DNA of 28,860 bases from a virus: IMG/VR virus record IMGVR_UViG_3300022187_000163, positions 1 through 28,860 of that record. One strand, 5' to 3'. Below are positions 5,261 through 17,340 of the stretch, in pieces (the first letter of the stretch is position 1; the number at the start of each line of letters is the position of its first letter). The position numbers and the translations under genes are program-made. The notes under the pieces are model-generated. The model had not been told where the DNA came from. It made no database searches and saw only the letters and a list, made by a program, of their open reading frames with translations.

Positions 5261-5448
5261 ACGAAGAATCAGCTAAGACAGTAATGGATGGTGTCGCCGT
5301 TTCAGGCGGCATAGCGTCTTTGGCTGGCTGGCTTCCAGATATTGCGGCTGTCATGACTATTTTGTGGTTGGCGTTACGAATTTACGAATCAACAACCGTA
5401 CAAGGGATATTAAAAAAGGGAGAGGAAAATGGCGACACTAAAAATTGA
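5254..5448 (+). CDS. Single-span holin-like membrane protein
   Basis: A 64-residue protein starting at GTG 5254 or GTG 5257; the second has better spacing from AGGTG upstream. A short polar N-terminus is followed by one long hydrophobic stretch (about residues 13-43, containing GWLPDIAAVMTILWLALRIYE) and a charged C-terminal tail. Size, topology and the WLP...W..LRIYE pattern match small holins of marine phages. Holins form inner-membrane lesions that trigger lysis. The gene overlaps its upstream neighbour by 7 bases and the downstream gene by 20 bases, so it is part of a tightly packed cassette. The holin call is by family resemblance and is moderately secure. Confidence 0.6.
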   Translation: MVNEESAKTVMDGVAVSGGIASLAGWLPDIAAVMTILWLALRIYESTTVQGILKKGEENGDTKN

Positions 5449-5632
5449 CGAGACAGAATACGAGATTGACGATTTATCGGAATCGGTAAAAGTCAAAGTT
5501 GCAAGAATGCAAGAAATTCAAGCACAGATTAGCAATTTGAACATGCAAGCAAATGAGCTGCAAACTGTATTTCAGGCTTACGTCAATACGATCAAAGAAG
5601 AACTGCAACCAGCGGGTGAGCTGGTAGACTAG
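5429..5632 (+). CDS. Small coiled-coil phage protein (DUF6447-like)
   Basis: A 67-residue acidic protein, MATLKIDETEYEIDDLSE..., preceded by GGGAGAGG 5 bases before the ATG. The first 20 residues form a short beta-type element (KI.E.EYEIDDLS); the rest is one predicted amphipathic helix (VKVKVARMQEIQAQISNLN...). This two-part form is common as a small gene near phage lysis or tail genes; I link it to DUF6447 from memory. There is no membrane span. Function is unknown. Confidence 0.65.
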   Translation: MATLKIDETEYEIDDLSESVKVKVARMQEIQAQISNLNMQANELQTVFQAYVNTIKEELQPAGELVD

Positions 5633-6667: not shown

Positions 6668-7066
6668 ATGCTGCAATCATTGATCGGCCCAGTCACAGGG
6701 TTGCTAGATAAGTTTATAGAGGATAAAGATCAAAAGGCTAGGTTGGCCCATGAAGTCGCTACAATGGCTCAGAATCATGCTCAAGAGCTTGCAAAGGCGC
6801 AGTTAGAAGTCAACAAGGTGGAAGCTGCTCATAAGTCGTTATTTGTTAGTGGCTGGCGACCCGCAGTTGGATGGGTTTGTGTTTTGGGCATGTTTGGCAA
6901 CTTTATTACCATCCCATTCAGCAACTTTGTGCTGGCTTTATTTGGTGTAGAAATAGTTATACCTCTGGTGCCTTTGGAGACTATGATGCCTGTGCTCATG
7001 GGTATGCTAGGATTGGGCGCAATGAGAACATACGAAAAGAAAAACAATGTACATAGAAATCAATGA
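6668..7066 (+). CDS. Three-transmembrane holin (GTA_holin_3TM-like)
   Basis: A 132-residue protein. The N-terminal half is a charged amphipathic helix (LLDKFIEDKDQKARLAHEV, then AQELAKAQLEVNKVEAAHK). Then SLFVSGWRPAVGWVC opens the first membrane segment, followed by hydrophobic FGNFITIPFSNFVLALFG and a third span around MMPVLMGMLGLGAMRTYEK. The AxHxSxFVxGWRPAxGW signature is that of the 3-TM phage/GTA holin family (PF11351 as I recall it). Last gene of the rightward late operon; its TGA stop overlaps the first base pair of the tRNA-like element. Confidence 0.85.
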   Translation: MLQSLIGPVTGLLDKFIEDKDQKARLAHEVATMAQNHAQELAKAQLEVNKVEAAHKSLFVSGWRPAVGWVCVLGMFGNFITIPFSNFVLALFGVEIVIPLVPLETMMPVLMGMLGLGAMRTYEKKNNVHRNQ

Positions 7067-7137
7067 CTGCGGCTAGTGCCTTGACGTTCCCCCTCTCCTT
7101 CTCTCGTCAATGGGGTGCAATTCCCCAGCAGTCACCA
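7065..7137 (+). ncRNA. tRNA-shaped RNA with 3' CCA and a large pyrimidine loop
   Basis: The + strand folds as a clean four-arm cloverleaf. Acceptor: 7065-7070 with 7128-7133 (6 bp; 7064/7134 can add a seventh). D-like arm: 7071-7073 with 7078-7080, loop TAGT. Long arm: 7081-7086 with 7105-7110 (TTGACG/CGTCAA), loop 7087-7104. T arm: 7111-7115 with 7123-7127 (TGGGG/CCCCA), 7-nt loop TGCAATT. It ends A-CCA at 7134-7137. The T-loop keeps U54, C56 and A58 equivalents. It lacks linker bases 8-9 and 26, a variable loop and a readable anticodon; the 18-nt loop is all C and T. It occupies the whole gap between convergent genes. The structure is seen; transcription, processing and function are inferred. 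Confidence 0.55.
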
Positions 7138-7139
7138 AT

Positions 7140-7301
7140 TTAAACCCAACGTTTTTGTAACCATTTATTCGCATTTAACGCCATCGGCGCTTCTTGCGGA
7201 CTGCGATTCCTAGACTGCCTGCATTTGCTACAAATCTTAAAATCTCGTCTAACAGCTACGTTACAGAAAGCGCAACGACTTTTAAAATGGGATATCGTCA
7301 T
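7140..7301 (-). CDS. Small zinc-ribbon protein
   Basis: A 53-residue ORF whose ATG lies inside the end of the SSB gene (20-base overlap). Cysteines at 10, 13, 24 and 27 form CxxC-x10-CxxC, a zinc-ribbon knuckle, followed by a basic stretch (RQSRNR) and a Trp-containing tail (NKWLQKRWV). Such small zinc proteins in phage recombination operons often bind nucleic acid, but no family could be named. It is the last gene of the leftward operon and ends three bases before the tRNA-like element. Coupling to SSB translation is likely. Confidence 0.6.
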   Translation of the reverse strand: MTISHFKSRCAFCNVAVRRDFKICSKCRQSRNRSPQEAPMALNANKWLQKRWV

Positions 7302-7605
7302 CGAAATCCTCTATCGGTGGTGTTTCATGATGCGCTGGCTCGGTTTGCTGAGTTTTTTGCTGTGCAAAATTATCAGCGTCTTTAGTATAGAAAATTTTAG
7401 CATTGCCGATAATTGGCAGTTGTAATTTTTGCTCTCGTTCTTCTTTACTTAATTGTTCAGAAATAATGCCATTGTCACCATACTGGCTTTGTTCGCTGTC
7501 GACAAATACAGTCAGTTTGGCGTAGGTTCCTTTTTTCCCTTGATAAAATCGTGTTTTATCGAGTTTGGTAACATCGATACTGAAATTCAAGCCAATAGTG
7601 GCCAT
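7282..7605 (-). CDS. ssb: Single-stranded DNA-binding protein
   Basis: A 107-residue protein. The N-terminal 70 residues look like a beta-rich OB-type fold with aromatic and basic residues (RFYQGKKGTYAKLTVFVD), then a Gln/Thr/Pro-rich linker and the acidic tail DFDDDIPF. A DDDIPF C-terminus is the partner-binding tip of bacterial SSBs and recruits replication and repair enzymes. TAGGAGAG lies 4 bases before the ATG. It sits after Erf and the YqaJ nuclease, forming an annealase-exonuclease-SSB recombination set. The family differs from E. coli SSB in its core; the SSB call rests on tail and context. Confidence 0.7.
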   Translation of the reverse strand: MATIGLNFSIDVTKLDKTRFYQGKKGTYAKLTVFVDSEQSQYGDNGIISEQLSKEEREQKLQLPIIGNAKIFYTKDADNFAQQKTQQTEPAHHETPPIEDFDDDIPF

Positions 7606-9528: not shown

Positions 9529-9549
9529 AGAGAAAAAAAAGGAGAGGAA

Positions 9550-10257
9550 ATGCGGTCAAACGATACCCCACCTTGGTTTCGATTATACAGCGAGATCATA
9601 GACAACTACAAGATCCGATGCTTGGCATTCGAAGACAGATGGCACTATGTAGCTATTTTGGCCTGCAAGAATCAAGGCATAATGAAAGGCAGCGGCGAGT
9701 TGCTGGAAAGGGCTTTAAGCGTAAAGCTAGGATTATCACAATCAGAGCTGGACGATTTAAAGAGCCGTTTGCTGGCTGTTAATTTAATTGACGAAAACTT
9801 TTGCCCGATTAGTTGGGACGATAGACAGTTTAGATCTGACAGCAGCAAGGAACGAGTCGCTAAGTACAGGGCTAAACTTAAATCAAATAATAATGTAACG
9901 GAAAAGAAACGTTACAAGGCTGTTACTGTAACGAGCCAAGATACAGATACAGATACAGATACAGATACAGAGAAAGATAAAATAAAAATTGTTTACAAGC
10001 GCATGAATGCGCTGGGTGTAGATACCCCATTATTAAGTGAATACATCAAAACTCGGATGAGATTGAAGGCCACAAACACGGCTCGCGCTTTAGCGACTCT
10101 AGCCAACAAAGCGGAGAAGTTAGCAAAGCAGGGCGAAGATATAAAAGAATTAGTCGAGGAGGCAAATAGCAATGGGTGGAAAACAATATACGAGCGGAAC
10201 AATCGTCAACAACGCCGTCACAGCGCAACGAAGATCGCAACCAGCACAGATTGGTGA
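9550..10257 (+). CDS. Phage replication initiator-like protein (lambda O-like organisation)
   Basis: A 235-residue protein with AAGGAGAGG 3 bases before the ATG. The N-terminal 95 residues (PPWFRLYSEIIDNYKIRCL, then a helical region, then ENFCPISWDDRQF) look like the winged-helix domain of phage replication proteins. A basic RVAKYRAKLK segment follows, then a low-complexity TDTDTDTDTEKDK linker and a helical C-terminal domain ending in GWKTIYERNN. Initiator or primosome-organising function is inferred from this architecture and from the helicase-loader-like gene that overlaps its end by 86 bases. No primase or polymerase motif is present. The linker-coding DNA has origin-like repeats. Confidence 0.6.
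   Translation: MRSNDTPPWFRLYSEIIDNYKIRCLAFEDRWHYVAILACKNQGIMKGSGELLERALSVKLGLSQSELDDLKSRLLAVNLIDENFCPISWDDRQFRSDSSKERVAKYRAKLKSNNNVTEKKRYKAVTVTSQDTDTDTDTDTEKDKIKIVYKRMNALGVDTPLLSEYIKTRMRLKATNTARALATLANKAEKLAKQGEDIKELVEEANSNGWKTIYERNNRQQRRHSATKIATSTDW
9895..9990. other. Origin-like repeat cluster inside the initiator gene
   Basis: GTAACG (9895-9900) and CGTTAC (9910-9915) form one inverted repeat; GTTACTGTAAC (9922-9932) is a perfect 11-base palindrome. Five tandem GATACA units follow at 9940-9969, then an A/T-rich purine-biased stretch. Palindromes, iterons and an A+T-rich segment inside an initiator gene match the lambda-type origin layout. Coding low complexity (TDTDTD) is the alternative explanation for the GATACA units. 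Confidence 0.4.
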
Positions 10258-15243: not shown

Positions 15244-16110
15244 ATGAATCCATACTTCATTAATGAACCAGCAGTCATAAGTTTCAGTGGAGGCAGAACT
15301 TCAGCCTATATGCTTTGGCGGGTCATTCAGGCGCATAATGGGGTTCTTCCTGATTATGTGGTTGTAACATTTGCTAACACAGGCAAAGAATTGCCCGAAA
15401 CTTTAGATTTTGTTCACGCTTGCGCCGTTAATTGGAATATTCCAATCGTCTGGCTTGAGCGCGTGATTACGAGAAATCCAGAAGGATCCAAGCGTAAATA
15501 TGCTTACGAAACTGCGGTTGTTAGTTATGAAACTGCATCAAGAAATGGCGAGCCGTTTGAGGCTTTGATAAAAGCAAGGCGATACGCACCAAATCCGGTC
15601 GCCAGATTTTGCACTCAAGATTTAAAAATAAAAGCTATTCAACAATACTTGTTTGAAGAATTAAATTTTCCAAAACCTTATTTGTGCTTGATCGGAATCA
15701 GAGCAGACGAAGAAAGACGCGCAGTTAAATTGCACAACACTGTTGAAGGTGGCCAAGAAAGATATTTGCCTCTGTACGTTGACGGCATCACTAAAGAAGA
15801 TATTTATGCGTTTTGGGTTTCACAGAATTTTGATCTAAATCTTCCAAATAACAATGGCACAACTGACTGGGGTAATTGTGACGTGTGTTTTTTGAAAGGA
15901 TTGAGCAAAAAGTTATCTATAATTGAAGCTAGGCCAGATTTGGCAGACTGGTGGATTAAGCAAGAAAAATCACTTTCTGCTGCGGTTGGTAAAGCAGCTT
16001 ATTTCAGAAGGGATCAGCCAAGTTATGAACAGTTGAAAATAATTGCCAGTGATCAAGGGTCGCTGTTTAACTTTGATGACGAATCAATACCTTGTTTTTG
16101 TGGCGATTAA
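15244..16110 (+). CDS. PAPS reductase-like PP-loop protein with Cys motifs
   Basis: A 288-residue protein. SFSGGRTSA at residues 13-21 is the PP-loop (SGG.TS) that binds nucleotide pyrophosphate; ANTGKELPETLDFV follows as in PAPS reductases. Conserved cysteines lie at 123 (RFCTQDLKIK), 212/215 (GNCDVCFLKG) and 284/286 (the terminal CFCGD), enough for an iron-sulfur cluster as in DndC-type and TtcA-type enzymes. No SD precedes the ATG, only A/T-rich sequence. The ParB-methylase follows immediately. A role in sulfur-based or other DNA/nucleotide modification is suggested by this pairing; direct sulfate assimilation is less likely. Confidence 0.75.
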   Translation: MNPYFINEPAVISFSGGRTSAYMLWRVIQAHNGVLPDYVVVTFANTGKELPETLDFVHACAVNWNIPIVWLERVITRNPEGSKRKYAYETAVVSYETASRNGEPFEALIKARRYAPNPVARFCTQDLKIKAIQQYLFEELNFPKPYLCLIGIRADEERRAVKLHNTVEGGQERYLPLYVDGITKEDIYAFWVSQNFDLNLPNNNGTTDWGNCDVCFLKGLSKKLSIIEARPDLADWWIKQEKSLSAAVGKAAYFRRDQPSYEQLKIIASDQGSLFNFDDESIPCFCGD

Positions 16111-16125
16111 CATAGAGGAGAGAAT

Positions 16126-17340
16126 ATGTCAGATTTGGAGGTAAAGTATTTATCGGTTAATGACCTGGTTCCGTATGCCAACAACCCGCGCACGCATAGC
16201 GAAAAGCAAGTAACGCAAGTGGCATCAAGCATAAAAGAATTTGGATTTAACAACCCGATATTGCTTGACGAGGGCAAAGGTATTATTGCGGGTCATGGCC
16301 GTTTGGCAGCAGCAAAAAAACTTGGTTTGGAGTCCGTCCCGACTATAACACTGAAAGGCTTAACCGAAGCGCAGCGCAAGGCGTATGTGATAGCAGACAA
16401 CAAGCTCACTGAGAACAGTGAATGGGACTACGACCTTCTGGCCGTGGAGGTAGAACGTCTCAAAGAATTAGATTTTGATCTAGATTTGACGGGCTTCGAT
16501 GATGACGAGCTAGAAACGTTATTAAAGCCAACGGTTGTTGAGGGATTAACCGACGAAGACGAGGTTCCAGAGCCGCCAGAGAACCCGATAACGAAACTAG
16601 GTGATATTTGGATTTTAGGCAATCATCGTGTGATGTGTGGAGACTCCACGAGCTTTGATGATGTCGAAAAGCTGATGGATGGGCGAAAAGCTGATATGTG
16701 GCTGACTGACCCACCATATAATGTAAAGTACGTAGGAAAAACAAAAGACGCGTTAACCATTAAAAATGACAGCTTAAGTGATTCGGAGTTCCGTCAATTT
16801 TTAACAGATTGTTATACTGTTGCAGACTCAATGATGAAAAGCGGCGCAGTTTTTTATATTTGGCACGCTGACAGCGAGGGTTATAACTTTCGCGGAGCTG
16901 CAAAGGATACTGGTTGGCAAGTTCGTCAGTGCTTAATATGGAAAAAACAAACGATGGTTATGGGTCGTCAGGATTATCATTGGAAGCACGAACCTTGCTT
17001 ATATGGATGGAAAGAAGGAGCTGGTCATCTTTGGGCGGCAGACCGTAAACAAACGACTATACTTGAATTTGATCGTCCATCTAGAAATAAAGAACACCCA
17101 ACGATGAAGCCTGTTGAACTATTTGCTTATCAAATTTTGAACAATACAAAAGGTTCTGATGCGGTTTTGGATAGCTTTGGTGGAAGTGGAACCACATTGA
17201 TTGCTTGTGAAAAGCACAACCGCGATAGCTTTTTGATGGAATTAGACCCCAGATACTGCGACGTTATTGTAGACCGATGGCAATCGTTCACAGGTAAAAC
17301 TGCACAATTAGAGCGTCCTCTGGAGGTTATGAATGGCTAG
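16126..17340 (+). CDS. ParB-domain DNA methyltransferase (N4/N6, beta-type order)
   Basis: A 404-residue fusion. Residues 5-100 are a ParB/Srx nuclease-like domain: NDLVPYANNPRTHSEKQVTQ, then GIIAGHGRLAAAKKLGLESV. An acidic linker follows. The methylase domain from about 158 has TDPPYN (195-198 DPPY, catalytic motif IV), HPTMKP (324-329) and DSFGGSGTT (motif I, 351-357). Motif IV before motif I is the beta class of N6-adenine or N4-cytosine enzymes. AGAGGAGAG lies 3 bases before the ATG. Such orphan methylases can protect phage DNA from restriction; no cognate nuclease is seen. The ParB domain lacks an HTH for parS binding. Confidence 0.88.
   Translation: MSDLEVKYLSVNDLVPYANNPRTHSEKQVTQVASSIKEFGFNNPILLDEGKGIIAGHGRLAAAKKLGLESVPTITLKGLTEAQRKAYVIADNKLTENSEWDYDLLAVEVERLKELDFDLDLTGFDDDELETLLKPTVVEGLTDEDEVPEPPENPITKLGDIWILGNHRVMCGDSTSFDDVEKLMDGRKADMWLTDPPYNVKYVGKTKDALTIKNDSLSDSEFRQFLTDCYTVADSMMKSGAVFYIWHADSEGYNFRGAAKDTGWQVRQCLIWKKQTMVMGRQDYHWKHEPCLYGWKEGAGHLWAADRKQTTILEFDRPSRNKEHPTMKPVELFAYQILNNTKGSDAVLDSFGGSGTTLIACEKHNRDSFLMELDPRYCDVIVDRWQSFTGKTAQLERPLEVMNG

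Follow-up and report, generated by a model that had tools for sequence, protein, structure and literature searches.

Comparative analysis of a marine phage contig (IMG/VR record IMGVR_UViG_3300022187_000163; 'the window' designates the whole 28,860-nt stretch of DNA) points to a tRNA-like element, situated between two convergent operons, that belongs to a real RNA family; among its members in many other uncultured phages the shape has been kept while almost every base pair changed. The family shows full compensatory covariation (tertiary elbow pair included) in phage groups with differing gene surroundings, is apparently undescribed so far and probably helps control the translation of phage genes. 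Should its pyrimidine loop be an anti-Shine-Dalgarno (anti-SD) arm, a tRNA mimic would be tied to the timing of phage replication and lysis. To our knowledge, catalogues of structured RNAs are poor for tailed DNA phages, and regulatory folds of tRNA-like shape are rare in bacteria.

Fold and genomic position of the element

The features of the window on which the analysis is based are the following:

7064-7137 (+): tRNA-like RNA, whole element (fold, covariation, detection by the distant-group model R2)
7064-7070 (+): acceptor stem, 5' strand (U-1, then G1); partner strand 7128-7134; double changes in 4 of 7 pairs
7071-7080 (+): D-like arm of 3 bp (GGC/GCC) with loop UAGU; G7076 is the equivalent of position 19
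7081-7110 (+): long arm in the anticodon-arm position, 6 bp; double changes in 5 of 6 pairs
7087-7104 (+): pyrimidine loop UUCCCCCUCUCCUUCUCU, 18 nt, anti-SD-like
7111-7127 (+): T arm, 5 bp and 7-nt T-loop UGCAAUU
7128-7137 (+): acceptor 3' strand and tail (A)CCA, of which only A-C is widespread
6668-7066 (+): holin gene upstream of the element (PHROG 3427; Pfam GTA_holin_3TM)
7140-7301 (-): small convergent gene for a zinc-ribbon protein; its synteny with the element holds in every contig of classes A-C
7282-7605 (-): small acidic-tailed gene of the convergent operon, probably SSB-like
5417-5425 (+): SD AGGGAGAGG belonging to gene 5429-5632, with which the lysis cassette begins; candidate loop partner, suggestive only
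9539-9547 (+): SD AAGGAGAGG of gene 9550-10257; alternative candidate loop partner, 9 bp

The plus strand of the element folds into four helices that close a four-way junction with zero unpaired bases between them (minimum free energy -26.9 kcal/mol, z -3.67, with 0 of 200 shuffles equally stable), which bears out the linker-free arrangement proposed in the initial annotation; the minus strand is far less special (z -1.38). The acceptor (UGACUGC/GCAGUCA) pairs 7064-7070 with 7128-7134 over 7 bp, or alternatively comprises 6 bp from G7065 with A7134 as the discriminator. The D-like arm (GGC-UAGU-GCC) pairs 7071-7073 with 7078-7080 around a 4-nt loop, the long arm (UUGACG/CGUCAA) pairs 7081-7086 with 7105-7110 around the all-pyrimidine loop of 18 nt, and the T arm (UGGGG-UGCAAUU-CCCCA) pairs 7111-7115 with 7123-7127 around a loop of 7 nt. 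The description of the element as tRNA-like without an anticodon held as well: ARAGORN and Rfam at gathering threshold reported nothing in the window, and a 7-nt anticodon loop with scores above the thresholds was not found.

The three bases of the holin stop codon (TGA) are the first three of the acceptor 5' strand, so that G7065 does lie inside the stop codon as first noted, but this overlap is not kept among relatives (the stop codon is located farther upstream in contigs L083 and L541). On the other side, the zinc-ribbon gene ends at 7140, close to the end of the element at 7137, in agreement with the earlier reading; the gene that follows (7282-7605) probably encodes an SSB-like protein, judging from its DDDIPF tail and its neighbours. 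The ACCA end is literally correct in the window but not conserved, its place being taken by ACCT, ACCC, AACC or ACTT in the relatives. The suggested CCA-enzyme or aminoacylation chemistry is not supported, because CCA is not conserved and only A73-C74 is widespread. On the plus strand, nothing resembling a terminator was found where the element ends; the reading as an intrinsic terminator was set aside.

Relatives at the convergent junction

With the neighbouring zinc-ribbon and SSB-like genes as anchors, related elements were found at the equivalent convergent junction of 16 further IMG/VR contigs; by sequence, the elements fall into three classes:

Class A: the window, L082-L086, L383/L384, L541 and L542
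Class B: L002/L090, L091, L087-L089 and L388
Class C: L387

The upstream gene is a 61-aa protein (and no holin) in L387 and L541, and a diverged holin in L083; since the element persists though the upstream gene changes, it is not part of the holin gene. When holin homologues were used as the anchor, the element was present at 1 of the 80 best loci (L002 only), which indicates that it travels with the zinc-ribbon/SSB side and not with the holin. Furthermore, L083 and L082 have strongly diverged holin genes and an identical tRNA-like element, which gives the element the look of a border between exchanged modules. The T-loop reads UUCGAUU in class B (and in class D, described below), as against UGCAAUU in the window. 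As a separate observation, a hairpin (AGGGTTTCGCAAGCCCTACCA) that resembles a T arm with a 7-nt loop, and is followed by ACCA, precedes the class B element (L002:5400-5425, L087 and L388), and L387 carries GGGGCACAGCCCC in its place.

Covariation and the elbow contact

The relatives were aligned with a covariance model (R1) built from two sequences only (L082 and L387), and covariation was assessed over the 11 distinct sequences of classes A-C. All 231 cells (21 pairs in 11 homologues) are paired, cell counts that overstate the number of independent events because the classes represent only three main lineages. Compensatory double changes affect 12 of the 21 pairs with no cell broken, an outcome favourable to the RNA on the compensatory-change check put forward with the initial annotation. 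The covariation score is 0.498 (0.181 +/- 0.026 in shuffles), and at most 53% of the partners pair when slid out of register. In class B, a sixth T-stem pair is U-A, A-U or G-C across three close relatives. Moreover, the elbow pair 19-56 between D-loop and T-loop (G7076 to C7118 in the window) forms in 11 of 11 sequences, alongside the T arm with its 7-nt loop, as G-C in 10 and as A-U in one (L387); this switch is evidence for a tertiary fold, beyond the cloverleaf. As pair 18-55 is a non-standard A-G in class A, we claim only the 19-56 contact.

These data bear on two further readings. That the element is a DNA-level feature of the convergent junction (a cruciform, an attachment site or a bidirectional terminator) is highly improbable: inverted repeats between convergent operons would be in keeping with it, but the T-loop and the elbow make sense on only one of the strands, three G-U cells are paired on the plus strand and would be unpaired on the minus strand, no integrase was found among the proteins scanned, and the class D members lie inside an operon. 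Even less credit can be given to a functionless, decayed tRNA gene (pseudo-tRNA); the T-loop and the A-C tail are tRNA-like, and the SSB-primase gaps of some relatives hold real tRNAs, but every stem, and the elbow pair too, has been fully preserved by compensatory changes, which contradicts decay, as do the zero linkers throughout and the retained pyrimidine loop. Both readings were set aside.

A second group between SSB-like and primase genes

A second group (class D), more distant and larger than classes A-C, was reached through a DNA pattern that combined the pyrimidine loop with the T arm. In these other phages the element is on the same strand as its two flanking genes, one SSB-like (DUF669) and the other encoding a primase (DUF3987). 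Such an arrangement is at odds with the proposal that the element generally caps the late mRNA at its 3' end.

A set of 57 loci was fetched by the SSB protein, a choice that involves no selection on the loop, and nearly all of those parsed contained the element. Of 37 representative gaps, 32 resolve into an acceptor, a UGG D-loop, a long arm, the pyrimidine loop and a T arm with UUCGAUU; none of 960 dinucleotide-shuffled gaps and none of 857 other windows does so. The AC of the tail is retained by 30 of these 32. An H-type pseudoknot is present 1-5 nt upstream of the element in 27 of 32, and both of its stems covary (ACGAG/CTCGT, AGAC/GTCT, AGTAG/CTACT; GTGCG/CGCAC, TGAACCA/TGGTTCA, ATGCGT/ACGCAT).

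A model trained on class D only (R2) detects classes A-C at 44-63 bits (the window element at 44.3 bits with E 3e-9), against a maximum of 34.8 bits for real tRNAs, and R1 (classes A and C) detects the better part of class D (E 5e-6 to 3e-3); these E-values are rough, and the class D training alignment was itself made with R1. On the grounds of this mutual detection, classes A-C and class D are treated as one RNA family, convergence on the tRNA shape being the less likely reading.

The SSB-primase gaps showed other tRNA-related content. Tandem tRNA-like elements occupy a single gap in L540 (3523-3607 and 3684-3751), and second matches were also seen in other class D contigs. In Arthrobacter phage Amavida (L479:2030-2240), a pseudoknot of the class D type (GACAGACCTGAGCAAGTCTGTGTAAACTGCTCAT) precedes an odd annotated tRNA-?(ca) and a tRNA-Val. 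The gap of Clavibacter phage CN1A (KF669650; L481:2425-2474) holds a mini tRNA-like element consisting of acceptor and T arm only (GGGCATT, 14 nt, GCGGG-TTTGATT-CCTGC, GGTGCCC, ACCA).

The pyrimidine loop and Shine-Dalgarno sequences

Across the family the loop measures 16-19 nt, is nearly all pyrimidine (89-100% in classes A-C, 92% on average in class D) and includes runs that resemble an anti-SD sequence. The motif CUCCU is found in 28 of 32 class D loops (those of L492 and L499 have lost it). Class D loops match the SD of their own primase gene with a mean of 19.7, versus 17.2 +/- 0.66 for the SDs of other phages, a preference that holds over 14 collapsed lineages (p=0.00025) and by duplex energy (p=0.008); CUUCUUCUCC with GGAGAAGAAG and UUUCUCCUUUU with AAAAGGAGAAA are examples of such loop/SD couples. 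An anti-SD role of the class D loop is supported by this matching of sequences, and the fact that the loops track their own downstream SD favours action in cis. The same tracking weighs against a free, trans-acting or decoy RNA, the loop of which would mimic the 16S 3' end or sequester host or phage SDs (or, in another form, would offer a decoy substrate to host nucleases that cut tRNA or 16S RNA); we regard this as improbable, with the pyrimidine content of the loop, its CUCCU motif and the persistence of the element through changes of neighbouring genes speaking in its favour.

For the window lineage, an anti-SD role of the loop with the lysis-cassette SD as its target is only suggested. The best plus-strand complement of the window loop is the SD of gene 9550-10257 (replication-initiation-like) and the second-best is that of gene 5429-5632, and against the SDs of the window the loop does not outperform loops shuffled with their composition kept (p 0.19-0.32). 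The SD of the replication-initiation-like gene was rejected as a conserved target, the pairing being lost in classes B and C. At the head of the lysis cassette stands a small gene; with its SD, a target chosen post hoc, the loop forms 8-10 unbroken pairs in 7 of 7 phages tested of the window group (per-phage p 0.013-0.47; loop-swap test p 0.07-0.1), and L002 displays a double switch in which GGAGGGG/CCCCUCC replaces GGAGAGG/CCUCUCC. Across relatives, the best loop sites lie at start codons more often than those of shuffled loops (p=0.08).

Comparison with known RNAs

No family of Rfam 15 matches the element at threshold. With respect to tRNA (RF00005), neither ARAGORN nor Rfam gave a match in the window or at those loci of classes A-C and D that were tested, and nearby real tRNAs were detected.

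The closest structural plan is that of the eukaryotic mascRNA, which lacks the eight linker residues of tRNA, folds into an L and is produced by RNase P and RNase Z processing (PMC11693755). The phage element shares with mascRNA/menRNA the four-way junction with zero linkers, the long equivalent of the anticodon arm, the T arm with a 7-nt loop and the elbow contact, together with a small D arm, in which GG occurs in classes B and D. mascRNA-menRNA (RF01684) is also the best sub-threshold Rfam match of a class B element (L002: 19.9 bits, E 0.14, below the gathering score of 42.5), and is not listed for the window under permissive limits. In contrast to mascRNA, which is animal and has a compact loop, the phage element presents a pyrimidine loop of 16-19 nt, does not conserve CCA and in class D adds a pseudoknot in front. 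RNase P/Z release, by which mascRNA is made, would be plausible for the phage element in view of the shared plan. The shared plan probably arose by convergence.

This resemblance brings in the main rival explanation, in which the element would be a mascRNA-like 3' processing signal: at a junction without an intrinsic terminator, RNase P would cut before G7065 (with or without 3' trimming), by which the late mRNA would acquire its 3' end and a small RNA of tRNA-like shape would be set free. In addition to the common plan, U-1, G1 and A73 are invariant in the window group and C74 is nearly always kept, which would suit RNase P, the plus strand offers no terminator-like site, and the element sits at the operon end whichever gene is upstream. 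Against this, CCA is not kept, the class D element precedes a coding gene, and the conserved pyrimidine loop is left unexplained. We consider such a signal rather unlikely as the principal function, and note that it is compatible with an anti-SD loop, so that both could be true.

The yjdF riboswitch provides a precedent in cis: its fold is tRNA-like, the off state has the SD paired to the T-loop, and tRNA-like leaders alone raised translation 2- to 6.3-fold (PMC9142559). The phage element resembles it in being a tRNA-like fold, predicted to be part of an mRNA, with a D-loop/T-loop elbow and a putative action near an SD. It differs in that the loop at the anticodon position is the candidate anti-SD and the junction has no linkers, whereas in yjdF the T-loop is the SD partner and a purine-rich J1/2 binds the ligand; yjdF gave no Rfam match in the window at E<=10. 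Among sub-threshold Rfam families, the one that the window matches best is the tRNA-like element of Tymovirus (RF00233: 19.9 bits, E 0.057, with a gathering score of 40). Its T arm is nearly identical (AAUGGGGUGCAA.UCCCC), and a pseudoknot precedes the tRNA-like structure in class D, but the Tymovirus acceptor is pseudoknotted, while that of the phage element, from a DNA phage, is a simple stem of 7 bp. The tRNA-like domain of tmRNA (RF00023) likewise has an acceptor, a T arm and, instead of an anticodon arm, a long arm; unlike tmRNA, the element has neither a tag reading frame nor the G-U alanine identity pair, and ARAGORN and Rfam (permissive limits included) found no tmRNA match in the window. 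In Stenotrophomonas virus Jojan60 (ON045087; L478:2386-2468), an 83-nt RNA unannotated in the record lies directly upstream of the primase gene; it matches tmRNA at 61.8 bits (gathering score 47) with the entire message/pseudoknot part absent, and this message-less tmRNA-like RNA occupies the class D position.

Proposed role in phage translation

We tentatively favour, at somewhat short of even confidence, the view that the element is an RNA of the late transcript, an L-shaped, linker-less tRNA mimic whose loop acts as an anti-SD arm that represses or times the translation of a phage gene. As part of the phage late transcript, it would fold into a mimic of the mascRNA type and display the single-stranded pyrimidine loop in the place of the anticodon. 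The loop would pair with the ribosome-binding site of a phage gene, the translation of which would be held back or timed, and the tRNA-like scaffold would stabilise the loop and leave it accessible, and may also recruit factors that handle tRNA. Class D elements would act in cis. The window RNA may act in cis, as part of the late mRNA, or in trans once released from it, its putative target being the SD of lysis-cassette gene 5429-5632 or another SD.

Slightly more guarded is the broader proposition that L-shaped, linker-less tRNA mimics (with a pseudoknot in front in one group) present an anti-SD loop and control the translation of replication and lysis genes. They would thus constitute a new class of riboregulators and, as far as we found, the first RNA of the mascRNA type outside animals.

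Distribution and additional observations

A blastn search against cultured phages returned no homologue of the element, a pattern scan of genome contigs revealed no true member among the matches listed, and R2 gave no match on approximately 960 bacterial genomes from three broad groups, a weak test given its strict filters and the lack of a positive control. Such an RNA was also not found in the open-access literature searched. Scans with a loose DNA pattern yielded mostly chance matches, which a structural descriptor removed; on approximately 3.5 Mb of fetched phage and bacterial DNA, this descriptor recovered true homologues only, plus one poor match. Elsewhere in the window, a PAPS reductase-like auxiliary gene (15244-16110) is located beside a ParB/DNA methyltransferase fusion (16126-17340).
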